Shown: positions 312 to 26,920 of the stretch, one piece after another
Position numbering within the stretch: the first letter of the stretch is position 1
Layout: each line of letters opens with the position of its first letter
IMG/VR virus record: IMGVR_UViG_3300046002_006040
Span: 1-35,842 of that record
From: a virus
Reading direction: 5' to 3' (one strand)
Length of the DNA: 35,842 nucleotides
The notes under the pieces: model-generated
Seen by the model: only the letters and a program-made list of their open reading frames with translations
Databases searched by the model: none
What the model was told of the DNA's origin: nothing
Made by a program: the position numbers and the translations under genes

Positions 312-385
312 GGCGAGGTAGCTCAGTTGGTTAGAGCGCAGGATTCATAACCCTGAGGTCACGGGTTCAACTCCCGTCTTCGCTA
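312..385 (+). tRNA. tRNA-Met (anticodon CAT), probable prophage attachment site
   Basis: A complete cloverleaf is visible. The acceptor is 312-318 with 378-384, the D arm is GCTC/GAGC, and the anticodon loop TTCATAA is at 344-350 with CAT at 346-348. The T arm ACGGG/CCCGT encloses TTCAACT, and the discriminator base is A385. CCA is not encoded (CTA follows). The acceptor has G-U pairs at its first and sixth positions, and the anticodon stem has an A-C mismatch at 343/351. An elongator Met tRNA is most likely, but tRNA-Ile2 cannot be excluded by eye. An integrase gene starts about 110 nt downstream, the usual layout when a prophage uses the tRNA 3' half as attB. Confidence 0.93.
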
Positions 386-388
386 CTA
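344..388 (+). other. Probable attL core (tRNA 3' half)
   Basis: Inferred, not demonstrated. The integrase gene lies directly downstream of the tRNA 3' end, and tyrosine recombinases of this type commonly cross over between the anticodon loop and the 3' end of a tRNA gene. I did not find a second copy of this segment elsewhere in the window, so the other attachment site should lie beyond 35842. Exact core boundaries cannot be set from one junction. Confidence 0.5.
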
Positions 389-22227: not shown

Positions 22228-22412
22228 TAGTATATGGTTTTAATGTTTGATATTTCGTATTGATAATGTTGTGATGCTGATTCTGCACAAATTACTTCAT
22301 ACATTACTTTATGTCCATCCCAAATGATAGCAGTCACCATTCGTGGCAACTGCTCAATATCATGCTTTAGATAAACTATATCCTCAATATTATATTCATT
22401 TGGTATTTCCAT
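22227..22412 (-). CDS. Small acidic protein, unknown
   Basis: A 61-residue product whose start overlaps the portal stop (one shared base) and whose end overlaps the next start. It contains IEDIVYLKHDIEQLPRMVTA and VMYEVICAESASQHYQYEIS, a beta-rich pattern reminiscent of small SH3-like or KOW-like phage proteins. Not assigned. The overlaps on both sides support translation. Confidence 0.6.
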   Translation of the reverse strand: MEIPNEYNIEDIVYLKHDIEQLPRMVTAIIWDGHKVMYEVICAESASQHYQYEISNIKTIY

Positions 22413-23827
22413 TATTGAACTGTTGGATTTGTTTCTGCTGGTTTTTCTGAATTAATCAAATTCAATTCTTCCTCTGGGTTCTCAACCATATCAATCAATT
22501 TAATAGCAGATTGAGCAGACAATAAACCAGACTCTTTTAATGATATAATAATATCGGTTGCTGTTTTAACATCATCAGGAATGATTGAATTGAAAACAAT
22601 ATCATAATACAAAGCACTTCCTAATCCCGATAAAGTAGTATTTGTAGTTTTGATAATACCCGACATGATCACATTAAGAATTCTTTCAATCATAGTTCTG
22701 TTTTCTCCCTCGTTCATGGTTGCCTTAATAACAGCATCAAGGAAAAGTAATTTTAAAGCAACTCCAGAAACACTACCAAGTCCTTTAACGTTGTCAAATG
22801 ACAAATCCGGTGTATGAGAAATGGAATAAATCAATTCTTTTAAATTATCAAATTCAAGTTTTGAACTTTCAGCAGAATTTGAAGACACCAAAAATTCAGC
22901 ACCTCCCTTAATCCAATTTCCTGAATCGTCTTTTTTCATAGGTAAATTAATAATCTTACCATTATCGTCTTTGTTTGGTAAAGTCTTAATGTCACCATGT
23001 ATCAATAAAATTGGATAAGCCGTATAATCGTTTGAGTTGCCTAATTTAGATAAAGTGGTTTCGTATCTGTCAATCAATTCTTTTACTTCAAACCACTCAG
23101 GCTGTTCTTGAGCTACATAAACAATTGGAATTCTATCGAATCCATGTGCTTTAGGACCTTCGTAAACCAAAGAACCTGATTCATCGCTTAATCTATGGTA
23201 ATTAAGTTCATCCCATATTTCAATAATATTGAATTCTTTTCCGTTTTTACTTGCTTTGTATTTCCACATAAACAATTCCATATTTCCGTTACCTCCAAAA
23301 TATGGTGTCATTTGCCCTTGTGAATTATCAAGAACCTTTGATTTAATCTCCTTAACTTGTTTGTTTAACTTAAAGAATGAAAGCACTTTATTTAAAAGTG
23401 AATTTTCTTTTGAATCTGCGATATAAAACTGAATTGCAGCTTGTGTTTCTGATTTTTTCAAAGAAACAATTTTCTGAATAGCAGCATCAATTCTGTTTAT
23501 CTTCCAAATCTGATAAATTAATTTTGATAAGTCGTTTTCTTCTGAAGGAATCAAGGTAACAGGCTTACCTACTTCAAAAGCCGTCGCAGTAGTAACAATC
23601 TTCTTTGCAAAATTTATTGGAATACGAACCGCTTTTACGATGTTACCTCCAGCTATTGGTTTATCAACTTGGGTTTTTCCAACTTGAGTATCTCTAAGTT
23701 TTCTATCCTTTTCCTTGTATTCCTTTTGATAATTTGAGATATCTTCTGCTGTTTTAGACTGCGCTTCTATAGTGGCAATCACTTTTTTTGGTTCGGTTTT
23801 TAAACCGTCTAATAAATTTGTTTCCAT
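22412..23827 (-). CDS. Portal protein (SPP1 gp6-like)
   Basis: This 471-residue protein would form the dodecameric portal vertex for DNA entry. The N-terminal DYRKL-like region is replaced here by YQKEYKEKDRKLRDTQVGK, then KAVRIPINFAKKIVTTATAF. The middle has ELIDRYETTLSKLGNSNDYT, and the later helix (SISHTPDLSFDNVKGLGSVS, then VALKLLFLDAVI) matches portal proteins of the SPP1-gp6/A118-like family. It follows the terminase gene by 5 nt in the expected order. Confidence 0.88.
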   Translation of the reverse strand: METNLLDGLKTEPKKVIATIEAQSKTAEDISNYQKEYKEKDRKLRDTQVGKTQVDKPIAGGNIVKAVRIPINFAKKIVTTATAFEVGKPVTLIPSEENDLSKLIYQIWKINRIDAAIQKIVSLKKSETQAAIQFYIADSKENSLLNKVLSFFKLNKQVKEIKSKVLDNSQGQMTPYFGGNGNMELFMWKYKASKNGKEFNIIEIWDELNYHRLSDESGSLVYEGPKAHGFDRIPIVYVAQEQPEWFEVKELIDRYETTLSKLGNSNDYTAYPILLIHGDIKTLPNKDDNGKIINLPMKKDDSGNWIKGGAEFLVSSNSAESSKLEFDNLKELIYSISHTPDLSFDNVKGLGSVSGVALKLLFLDAVIKATMNEGENRTMIERILNVIMSGIIKTTNTTLSGLGSALYYDIVFNSIIPDDVKTATDIIISLKESGLLSAQSAIKLIDMVENPEEELNLINSEKPAETNPTVQ

Positions 23828-23832
23828 GGTTA

Positions 23833-25290
23833 CTAATAATTAATGTTTTTTAAAGTTTCTGAGTCTGTTTCAAGTACTGCCGATTCTGAATTATGCGCTA
23901 TGTGGCCATAACGAGCTGCATCCCACATGTGGTTAAATTTATCGTTTGGCTGATTGATTGCAATACCAGCTATTTCCTTCATTCGGTAATTCTGTTGCTC
24001 TTTAAGTGCTTGTTGGTAAAGGTGGTTCTTAACAACATGAATCTTTTTAGTTTTCATAGAAGTAAGCCAAAACATTATCGACTTGGTTTTACTTATTTTA
24101 TAAGCATTTACAAAGCCTTCTTGCTTCAATCCTTTAACCATTTCAACCGTTCCTTTGTTCTCTCCAGTATATTTATCAGCAGAATCACAAGGAATTATGT
24201 CTTTAGCTGGGTCAATACCTAATTCCGTAAGCAGTAAAGACAAAGCCTTAGGAGTTTCAATTGGCTCATAACACAAAGGCTCAATCCATATATTGAATTC
24301 ATCTTCCGCATACTTAACCAGGGTGTTTGGATCTGTTGTAAATCCAAAGTCATTTGGATAAATTGGCGCTTTATCTTCTGGGAACTTATCAATCCATTCC
24401 ACATAAGGAAAAATAACGCCTTTCATTGCACCACGCAAACCAAGTCCGTAAACCTTCCAATTGAACTCGTCAGCCGTTCCGTTTTGGATATTCGTTGGAT
24501 GTGGTGGTGGTTGATTAGTTGATGTTACAGGCTCTACTTTTTTGGTTAACTTATTGTAACACATCACAATGCTATTCTTTACGATATAAGAACCAGGCTT
24601 CCAAGGTTCCCAAGAAAGTATTTTGTTTTTCTCCCCGATTGATATATGCTTGTTGTCAAGATAAGTAGTTCGAAGAAAGGCAACATCAGGACGAGTAAGC
24701 ACCTTATCAAAGAACCAGTGATCAGTTACGCTTGGATTGTAATCAGCCCACCAAAACTTACGACAACGCAATTCTACTTGGTCAAACACAGATTGACGAA
24801 TGAACATCATTTCATTAAAAAAAGCATAGTCACAACCTCCACCATGCTTACCATCACCAAGAAAGAATATTTTGCTTTTGCCTATTTTGAAAGACTTAAC
24901 CTCATCGTTATTGTGAAACTTATTTGGCAGTCCATAATCATCAAGCCTACGTTTAAAATCATCATACAGAGTAGTTTTAAACTCGTTGTAGGTTTCACGA
25001 TAGATATTGATTGTACACCCTTTTGGTTCGTAGTAAAGGCAAAGCCAAATGATTATATCTACACCGGACCATGTTTTACCTGAACGTGAAGAACCTTCTA
25101 AACCAGCACCACGAAAGCCTTTTACAAGATTTCCGTTTTCATCATACTTTTGCTCGTTTATTGCCTTGTAAAGTAGTTCGTAGTTTGGATTGGTGTCTTC
25201 ATCTAATTGCGTTAACTTTTTGCGTGAAATGTCAATCCCCTTTAGTTTAAGAAGATTTTCAAGTTCCAACATTTCAGCGTCTGTAAGCAT
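23833..25290 (-). CDS. terL: Terminase large subunit (PBSX-like)
   Basis: This 485-residue ATPase-nuclease drives DNA packaging. Walker A is GSSRSGKT at 66-73. Walker B is likely DYAFFNE at 154-160, with E160 catalytic. The C-terminal RNase-H-like nuclease has aspartates at D314 (PNDFGF), D369 (CDSAD) and D457 (HMWDAARYG). A proline-rich insert (STNQPPPHPTNIQNG, 257-271) lies between the ATPase and nuclease parts and is unusual. It starts 3 nt after the small HTH-like gene. Confidence 0.93.
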   Translation of the reverse strand: MLTDAEMLELENLLKLKGIDISRKKLTQLDEDTNPNYELLYKAINEQKYDENGNLVKGFRGAGLEGSSRSGKTWSGVDIIIWLCLYYEPKGCTINIYRETYNEFKTTLYDDFKRRLDDYGLPNKFHNNDEVKSFKIGKSKIFFLGDGKHGGGCDYAFFNEMMFIRQSVFDQVELRCRKFWWADYNPSVTDHWFFDKVLTRPDVAFLRTTYLDNKHISIGEKNKILSWEPWKPGSYIVKNSIVMCYNKLTKKVEPVTSTNQPPPHPTNIQNGTADEFNWKVYGLGLRGAMKGVIFPYVEWIDKFPEDKAPIYPNDFGFTTDPNTLVKYAEDEFNIWIEPLCYEPIETPKALSLLLTELGIDPAKDIIPCDSADKYTGENKGTVEMVKGLKQEGFVNAYKISKTKSIMFWLTSMKTKKIHVVKNHLYQQALKEQQNYRMKEIAGIAINQPNDKFNHMWDAARYGHIAHNSESAVLETDSETLKNINY

Positions 25291-25293
25291 TTT

Positions 25294-25647
25294 TTAAATG
25301 AATAAATGTTCCTTTTGAGAAATAACATTTGCATCTTTCAATAGCACGGTAAAATTGTATGCAGAAGCTCTTGACACATTTAGATTTTCGGCACGCTCGA
25401 TAAGTTCTTCTGAACTGAAAACAAACATCGAACAAACGATATCCGTTAAGTGTCTACGCTCTAAAGTCTTTCTTAATTGCTTTTGCTTCACGTAAGCGTT
25501 TATCTTTTCTCTACGGTCTGAATGGTCGACAGCCATGTCTTGCTTTAATTCTATCGCATCCAACAAAGCCAAACCAATAAGCGTTGGGTCGGTTGTTTGT
25601 TTACCTTGAACAAAAACTTGATTATTTGCTATTGTTATCATTCTCAA
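25294..25647 (-). CDS. HTH-like protein upstream of terminase large subunit
   Basis: A 117-residue product that overlaps the previous gene (25622-25858) and precedes terL by 3 nt. The C-terminal LIERAENLNVSRASAYNFTV looks like a winged helix-turn-helix. Its place beside terL and the DNA-binding look would suit a small terminase or its partner. The gene at 26444-26920 is the other candidate. A second in-frame ATG is at 25641. Confidence 0.55.
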   Translation of the reverse strand: MRMITIANNQVFVQGKQTTDPTLIGLALLDAIELKQDMAVDHSDRREKINAYVKQKQLRKTLERRHLTDIVCSMFVFSSEELIERAENLNVSRASAYNFTVLLKDANVISQKEHLFI

Positions 25648-25858
25648 TGATTTCTTTGATTATTTTATACTCAGTAATTGAGGTCATATACTGCGCCACA
25701 TAATCGAGTCCAAGTCTTTTAGCTTGCTCGTAATCGTGGTAAATGTTTTTGTAGTTTTTGATTAGCAGTTTTTGCTTGAATTTGTCCGTTCCTTCAAGGG
25801 ATTTGAAAAATTCAGTGCTTTCAATAGCAGTAACGAAGTTTGTAATATTGATTATCAT
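25622..25858 (-). CDS. Small helical protein, unknown
   Basis: A 78-residue product, the first gene after the long RNA-like gap. It starts MIINITNFVTAIESTEFFKS and contains QAKRLGLDYVAQYMTSITEY. It is mostly helical with no motif. The 26-nt overlap with the next gene and its place in unit C support expression. Confidence 0.6.
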   Translation of the reverse strand: MIINITNFVTAIESTEFFKSLEGTDKFKQKLLIKNYKNIYHDYEQAKRLGLDYVAQYMTSITEYKIIKEIIENDNNSK

Positions 25859-25910
25859 TTGATTTTAAATTATGAAATAGTGAAAAGCAATTTTTATAAT
25901 CTGTTTTTTA

Positions 25911-26328
25911 TAAGCCACGCATTGCTAAAGCTACACGATCAGATTTTGCATTGTTCTAGTTTCTTGGTTCTTAACAAAGGGAAGATTAATAACCAATACA
26001 TTACCCTATAACCTCAACGCAGTAGAATGATATGACGACGGATTAAACACACCGATAGGTTCTACTTGCTCATTTGTGCCTAACGCATGGGTATCGCTAA
26101 GGGGATGAGCTAAACTGCTTCTCAATATTTCAATTAACAACTAAATTTTGTGGAGAAGGAAGGATTCGAACCTACTACCTTTAGTTATTCAAATGGATTT
26201 ACACCAACCTAACGCTCTAGCCACTGAGCTACTTCCCCAGGATCATTCTTTCGCTTTTAACCCAAAGGAAACAGTTTCACAGTTAACGAAGGGAGCTTCC
26301 CATTTGTCTGAAGCTAGTGGCCATTGCT
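25911..26328 (-). ncRNA. Candidate large structured phage RNA with tRNA-like domain
   Basis: No protein gene fits this gap, but on the minus strand there is ordered pairing. From 5' to 3': hairpin 26310-26315/26294-26299; a bulged stem 26250-26261/26282-26290; the tRNA-like element (26151-26238); helix 26105-26110/26068-26073 enclosing 26095-26102/26079-26085; helix 26060-26066/26021-26027 enclosing 26052-26054/26039-26041; hairpin 25991-25996/25964-25969. Loop bases 26055-26059 can pair with 26005-26009 as a pseudoknot. 26317-26321 pairs with 25914-25918, and AGCAATG occurs near both ends. Several stems are symmetrical, so strand is inferred from the tRNA-like part and operon. The ends are approximate. 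No RNA family is claimed. Confidence 0.5.
26151..26238 (-). tRNA. tRNA-like element with enlarged anticodon arm
   Basis: This 88-nt element has acceptor GGGGAAG/CTTCTCC (one G-U), a 4-bp D arm GCTC/GAGC with loop AGTGGCTA, and a T arm GTAGG/CCTTC (one T-T mismatch) around TTCGAAT. The discriminator is A and CCA is not encoded. The anticodon arm is abnormal. TTAG and CTAA pair, but 24 nt lie between them instead of about 9. An alternative register would use GGTT/ATCC around GGTGTAA (anticodon TGT, Thr), with G instead of the near-universal T at position 33. It is either a decayed tRNA or part of the larger RNA. Confidence 0.6.
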
Positions 26329-26443
26329 GTTTTAATTAAATTCTTTTCATGACTTCAATGTTTTTGTTTTCATTTCGTTACGTCAAAAATAATACATTTT
26401 ATTACAAACTAATAAATATTATTACTTTTTATTTAAAAAAAAT

Positions 26444-26920
26444 CTAAACATTAAGTTTAGAAGCCTTTTCCAGAAGCTCTTGAAGTCTTCGCTCTTTGGA
26501 TTCGTCGAATGTATCGCCACCGAGTAAAGGGTTTTCTTTATCGCCTTGAAGTCGTAATGTTTTAACTGGATAAAGAGCTTCTAATTTGTTTATTTCCTTC
26601 TCATACGACAATTTAACCGCCATGCCTTGAGGGGTGTTTTTATATTTTTCATCCATTGACCTAATCTCTTGCTGTAATCTTGCGATTTTTAAAGCTCTTT
26701 TTTGGTCAATTGTAGCTTCTTGTTCCTGTTGCCATATTGAATAGGCTTTTTGAAGTAATACTTTTGCCTGACGTCGACTAAGGTAGTTACCGTCTTTGTT
26801 TTGAAATTGGTTTTGAATGTTTTTCAATATCAAATAATCGGGCACGCCATTGATTATCCACCCTTGAATGATGAATACACGTCTTTCTGTTTCTTCTTTG
26901 GATGATCTAACGCCTGCCAT
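26444..26920 (-). CDS. Putative terminase small subunit
   Basis: A 158-residue protein with an N-terminal helix-turn-helix-like region (RVFIIQGWIINGVPDYLILK, then NIQNQF) and SRRQAKVLLQKAYSIWQQEQ. A coiled coil follows (RALKIARLQQEIRSMDEKYK). The C-terminus ends RLQELLEKASKLNV. This order of DNA-binding head, oligomerising coil and short tail fits small terminase subunits that recognise phage DNA. It is separated from terL by the RNA-like gap and two small genes, which is unusual. Confidence 0.62.
   Translation of the reverse strand: MAGVRSSKEETERRVFIIQGWIINGVPDYLILKNIQNQFQNKDGNYLSRRQAKVLLQKAYSIWQQEQEATIDQKRALKIARLQQEIRSMDEKYKNTPQGMAVKLSYEKEINKLEALYPVKTLRLQGDKENPLLGGDTFDESKERRLQELLEKASKLNV

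Follow-up and report, generated by a model that had tools for sequence, protein, structure and literature searches.

The question raised by this locus is what fills a 585-nt stretch between two phage genes, and what it does there. The window (the whole stretch of DNA analysed, a virus record of 35,842 bases) carries phage genes on the minus strand in the order DNA methyltransferase, small gene, TerS-like gene, gap, p78, p117, terminase large subunit (TerL) and portal (table 1). The TerS-like gene is named from its position and from the preliminary description of this DNA, and family searches with it gave no confident match. No supported protein gene was found between p78 and the TerS-like gene, as the preliminary description had stated for its gap of about 585 nt. 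The large structured RNA that it had placed there is real; it consists of three modules rather than a single domain of about 400 nt, namely a 5' element (E), an enlarged tRNA-like RNA and a pseudoknotted domain, R. With these corrections it is confirmed that the gap holds genuine folded RNA, formerly uncatalogued.

Table 1. Features of the gap and of the neighbouring genes, in window coordinates.
Feature	Position	Strand	Description
TerS-like gene	26444..26920	-	upstream of gap; named from position and preliminary description
Putative Bacteroidota-type promoter	26384..26408	-	-33 TTTG 26408-26405, -7 TATTTTTG 26391-26384; consensus match
E, 5' element	26241..26322	-	conserved in L002 and L027/L096 (nhmmer)
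Enlarged tRNA-like RNA	26150..26238	-	acceptor GGGGAAG/CUUCUCC, G3:U70, abnormal anticodon arm
R	25882..26123	-	pseudoknotted structured RNA domain, member of new family; covariance models and covariation
P1 5' strand GAGAAGCAGUUU	26112..26123	-	pairs with 25882-25893
P2 hairpin GCUCAU/AUGAGC	26068..26110	-	26110-26105 with 26073-26068; covaries in relatives
P3 AGUAGAA/UUCUACU	26021..26066	-	26066-26060 with 26027-26021; encloses P3a
Pseudoknot 5' strand CCUAU	26055..26059	-	pairs with 26005-26009
P3a	26054-26050 with 26040-26036	-	inside P3
P4	25947..26021	-	UGCGUUG 26021-26015 with CAAUGCA 25953-25947
Pseudoknot 3' strand AUAGG	26005..26009	-	pairs with 26055-26059
P5 and P6 region	25898..25945	-	AAUCUG 25945-25940 with CAGAUU 25903-25898
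Conserved loop UCGUGUAGC	25938-25930	-	P5 region, UAUAAAAAA opposite
P1 3' strand AAAUUGCUUUUC	25882..25893	-	ends 23 nt before p78 start codon
p78	25622..25858	-	small gene of unknown function, directly 3' of R
p117	25294-25647	-	
Terminase large subunit	23833..25290	-	
Portal	22412-23827	-	

Relatives of the gap were collected by a TerL search of viral contigs, which gave 71 loci. A homologous gap RNA was recovered by direct alignment in L002, L010 and L027, and iterated nhmmer found a common 3' element of about 190-240 nt, R, in 33 relatives (one of them a short edge fragment) and the window. RNAalifold on 30 sequences gave 21 pairs, 17 with compensatory changes. A structure of eight helices (P1, P2, P3, P3a, P4, P5, P6 and the pseudoknot) was written on an alignment of 19 relatives, with the window, L002 and L010 excluded. 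In these 19 sequences 91.6% of cells were paired and changes on both sides were present in 39 of the 51 pairs (P1 8/12, P3 5/7, P3a 4/6, P4 5/5, pseudoknot 5/5). The covariation score was 0.497 against 0.076-0.136 in slid structures, over which the structure is somewhat favoured because it was drawn from these same sequences; none of 500 shuffles reached 0.497. A stricter all-pairs test with a simplified tree null (E < 0.05, 19,110 pairs) passed two pairs, both in the structure. As this test has little power with 29 sequences, a structure-level, tree-aware statistic was used, picked after the all-pairs outcome was known; simulation on the 29 sequences gave z of 13.8 to 14.6 for the whole R structure.

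Covariance model R1, built from the 19 relatives and not trained on the window, matched the window at 26088-25882 with 68.1 bits (E = 8.7e-14), misplacing the P1 5' strand because P2 of the window carries an inner insert. With the window in the training set (model R2) the score was 93.4 bits. When 45 distinct copies were aligned to the model, 93.6% of cells were paired and 41 of 46 pairs varied on both sides, figures that lean towards the covariance model used to build the alignment. G-U pairs are common in R, one of them being nearly invariant (G-U in 41 of the 44 sequences with letters at that place), and their number, together with the G-U-rich covariation, argues for RNA rather than for folding at the DNA level or a DNA recognition site. 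The comparison of homologous gaps that the preliminary description had proposed as a check was thereby passed, with eight covarying helices, pseudoknot included, and a match to the window by a model not trained on it.

Folding energy gave a different picture. Over the whole span it was equal to that of shuffled sequences (z = 0.18), as could be said in favour of chance helices in AT-rich intergenic DNA; this minimum free energy is uninformative, since three modules are folded as one. The window copy of E folded alone showed no excess stability (z = 0.89), and R alone gave z = -1.8 in the window and -3.8 and -3.0 in two relatives. Chance helices are refuted by the covariation and by the detection of the window with the covariance model. 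The support for R beyond chance is covariation, not folding energy, and energy alone would have missed R. Rfam 15 has no entry for R, which is confirmed as a genuine RNA family.

Members of the family are phage RNAs of about 180-245 nt, closed by a long helix (P1) within which lie hairpins P2-P6 and a pseudoknot. In the window P1 was read by eye as 12 pairs, two of them G-U, with the 3' side forming a U-rich strand. Much of this fold had been seen from the single sequence. The helices GCTCAT/ATGAGC (P2) and AGTAGAA/TTCTACT (P3) are conserved, covarying family helices, and the pseudoknot had been placed right to the base; its CCUAU/AUAGG in the window is replaced in relatives by CCAGU/ACUGG, CCAUC/GAUGG, CCGCU/AGCGG and others. 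The CGG/CCG helix inside P3 is retained in a different register, CGGUG/CGUCG, which fits the family better. The long-range closure GCCAC/GTGGC fails, as positions 25914-25918 share bases with the 3' strand of P6 and L002, the closest relative, has the pairing disrupted; the true closing helix is P1, which reaches beyond the limit of 25911 set in the preliminary description. An additional inner hairpin lies within P2 in the window and in L002, base 26021 has a possible partner in either P3 or P4, and P6 is a short, variable helix.

A scan of the window and ten relatives against Rfam 15 at gathering score gave no family on R, the matches being to tRNA; one DUF805b match lay far from R in the same scan. 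A permissive scan to E = 10 of window positions 25850-26450 and six relatives gave neither GOLLD nor ROOL. No R-like DNA was found by blastn over 50,697 phage records, the Nekkels and Danklef phages gave no covariance-model match to R, and literature searches on Flavobacterium phage non-coding RNA gave nothing. GOLLD and ROOL, between which and a new class the preliminary description had hesitated, are phage or prophage RNAs often found near tRNA islands, with function unknown (PMC12286853). From their published description they are closest in kind to R, though the homology test was negative. That R is a diverged member of either is extremely improbable: like them it is borne by phages and prophages, lies near tRNAs and is pseudoknotted, and GOLLD too combines a conserved 3' part with a 5' part that is less so, its linker at times holding tRNAs (PMC12286853), but neither the window gap nor the six relatives gave a match in sequence or structure up to E = 10, and R is far shorter than the 659 nt of one solved ROOL and the more than 800 nt of many GOLLD RNAs (PMC12286853). 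The other suggestion is supported: R represents a new class, covarying and pseudoknotted, that sits beside tRNAs in prophages and phages of Flavobacterium type. The R family is new, and resembles the large RNAs beside phage tRNA genes in kind though not in sequence. Stable RNAs C and D of phage T4, which are small, of unknown function and encoded within the phage tRNA cluster, resemble R in that setting and are likened to it by description only.

R was found in at least 45 distinct phage or prophage loci, essentially all of Flavobacterium type. Among whole genomes it occurred once each in eight of 399 genomes of the Flavobacterium-level (genus-level) group, and in the phylum- and family-level samples in the centre genome only; these large scans used stricter filters, by which weak matches may be lost. 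Virus records searched whole held one copy each where any was present. R is phage-specific and single copy per phage record. A loop pattern matched 50 viral contigs, of which about a third gave no full covariance-model match, were chance-like and were dropped. A second 32-bit match in L049/L136 lies at a contig end, matches the L030 copy and is most likely an assembly artefact. A weak match at L029:617-756 (17 bits, E = 0.19) has a P2-like hairpin at the place of R and is perhaps a deleted remnant of it. The contig that carries R and a Flavobacterium-type phage terminase in L074 is catalogued under a Neisseriaceae MAG and is likely misbinned.

Most copies of R are set between the TerS-like gene and TerL. 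Members of a second phage type (L098/L101 and L100/L102; by sequence L099/L103) have it close to Cpn10 and RusA-like genes, and neither Terminase_6N nor a phrog_2 terminase was detected in virus records related to that type. The genes 3' of R are of several unrelated kinds, and its 3' strand usually ends 3-30 nt before the start codon of the following gene on the same strand. Close TerL relatives at 81-82% identity (L005, L007-L009, L012) are without R and have another conserved element or a tRNA there; in L046 its place is taken by a tRNA only. R is not dependent on any one neighbouring gene. Its absence from close TerL relatives and its presence in the second phage type mean that this terminase can do without R and R without this terminase, and the same observations bear on the reading of R as a packaging element, either a cos or pac site in DNA, as the preliminary description had allowed, or an RNA that serves packaging as the phi29 prohead RNA does. 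What commends that reading is where R sits in the window and in the majority of relatives, with the TerS-like gene on one side and TerL on the other; with R missing beside such close terminase relatives, present among unrelated genes in a phage type without a recognisable terminase, and covarying through G-U-rich pairs as RNA rather than as a DNA recognition site, it is very unlikely.

R is linked to tRNAs. A strict pattern finds a T-arm motif no more than 110 nt upstream of R in 25 of 45 copies, against about 0.8 expected from the background density, and the number rises to about 30 when slightly variant T-arms are counted by eye. Most copies directly follow a gene for a tRNA or tRNA-like RNA of the same strand; in about a third no tRNA adjoins R, and tRNA processing is therefore not a general requirement. 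The tRNA-like domain proposed for the window was borne out by the Rfam tRNA model (54.4 bits at 26238-26151) and by an ARAGORN call at 26238-26150. Its acceptor, D and T arms fit tRNA, 19 residues of the anticodon arm are left unplaced by the model, no cloverleaf with a normal anticodon arm is formed by 26238-26150, and the label 'Pro' is unreliable because of this abnormal arm. G3:U70 is the alanine identity pair, and it is present here with A73, as in tRNA-Ala; to judge from these elements, the RNA may be charged with alanine. The window also has a lone ordinary tRNA-Met (CAT; 312-386, plus strand) close to its beginning, on the strand opposite to the gap RNAs.

The islands repeatedly contain enlarged tRNA-like RNAs of 88-165 nt, whose inserts lie in the anticodon arm, in the D-loop or in both. 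G3:U70 was found in 19 of 19 enlarged copies, the window's included, some of which come from related phages and are not independent. The count was made with a pattern leaving positions 3 and 70 free, which replaced an earlier one where U70 had been fixed by design; it needs a D-arm beginning with TAGCTC, and other types, such as leucine-like ones in L035 and L100, are uncounted. By eye, the first tRNA-like RNA of L002 does not keep G3:U70. These RNAs share with tmRNA a tRNA-like form, G3:U70 and the lack of a normal anticodon arm, but their 88-165 nt leave out almost the whole tmRNA body; the Rfam tmRNA model gave 27.8 bits in one relative, below the cut-off of 47. The leucine-like RNAs (L035:3025-3170 and L100:1346-1483) have very long inserts in the anticodon/variable region, and in L022:2678-2739, L114:3783-3843 and L147:744-802 the insert of the anticodon region is a conserved module common to several phages.

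The Bacteroidota promoter consensus is TTTG..TAnnTTTG, and the putative promoter of the window was recognised by its match to this. Similar putative promoters with an AT-rich palindrome, likewise by consensus match only, are present upstream in about 20 relatives, and in L006 some 20 bases separate a putative -7 element from P1, which follows it. Between the promoter and the tRNA-like RNA, a terminator-like hairpin (AAAGCC..GGCTTTTTT) is present in many relatives.

As to what R does, we lean towards a trans-acting structured phage RNA released from the transcript of a tRNA island. Transcription of the island would start at a Bacteroidota-type promoter of its own, and excision of the tRNAs by RNase P (at the 5' end) and by tRNA 3' processing would set R free. 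As has been proposed for GOLLD and ROOL, R would then act in trans during infection as a folded RNA, perhaps by way of a protein, the ribosome or self-assembly. A point against this reading is that the spacing of 3-30 nt to the start codon also suits a cis-acting leader. Such an operon leader, whose nascent fold would control termination, antitermination or translation downstream, is the main and a serious rival, which we hold to be possible though doubtful. It would accord with the orientation of R and its short distance to the following gene, with the U-rich strand that ends P1, with the terminator-like hairpin of many relatives and with the place of R ahead of TerL in terminase-type phages and, in the window, of the portal gene as well; the terminator-like hairpins noticed, however, are upstream of R, the downstream gene is of several unrelated kinds, a different gene set follows R in the second phage type, and close terminase relatives do without it. 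The put (HK022) and EAR antitermination RNAs, which are structured and stand ahead of an operon, offer a likeness by description only, and R differs from them in being pseudoknotted and usually placed after tRNAs. A further proposal, which we consider improbable, joins the two RNAs into a two-part device, in which an alanine-accepting, non-decoding tRNA-like RNA and R would together act on host translation or ribosomes or counter a tRNA-directed defence, and phages would swap the neighbouring RNA modules in cassette fashion.

To the large, elaborately folded RNAs that phages carry next to tRNA islands, whose function is an open problem, R adds a compact and apparently unrelated example from the prophages of sequenced Flavobacterium strains. 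The structure of R is defined enough for mutation helix by helix, and lysogens such as Flavobacterium cupreum CCM 8825, which carries R at locus L075, could open the question to testing. Unexpected in their own right are the insert-bearing tRNA-like RNAs of alanine type.

Other conserved elements were noted in the same islands. A different element of about 120-140 nt (GTAGGCTGTTCCTTCATA...) stands in the place of R at L005:805-946, L007:2664-2797 and L012:2701-2818, and may represent a second class of RNA. A motif of about 50 nt with a small GGTGGAG hairpin occurs in about a dozen loci (L017:3310-3363, L097:1717-1770, L024:540-582, L114:2754-2802), had no Rfam match in L097 and stands directly before a start codon in several of them. 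Conserved modules of 60-150 nt also lie between tRNAs in varied, cassette-like combinations (L014:2231-2324, L022:3018-3112, L061:3141-3236, L047:2250-2318, L012:2285-2346).
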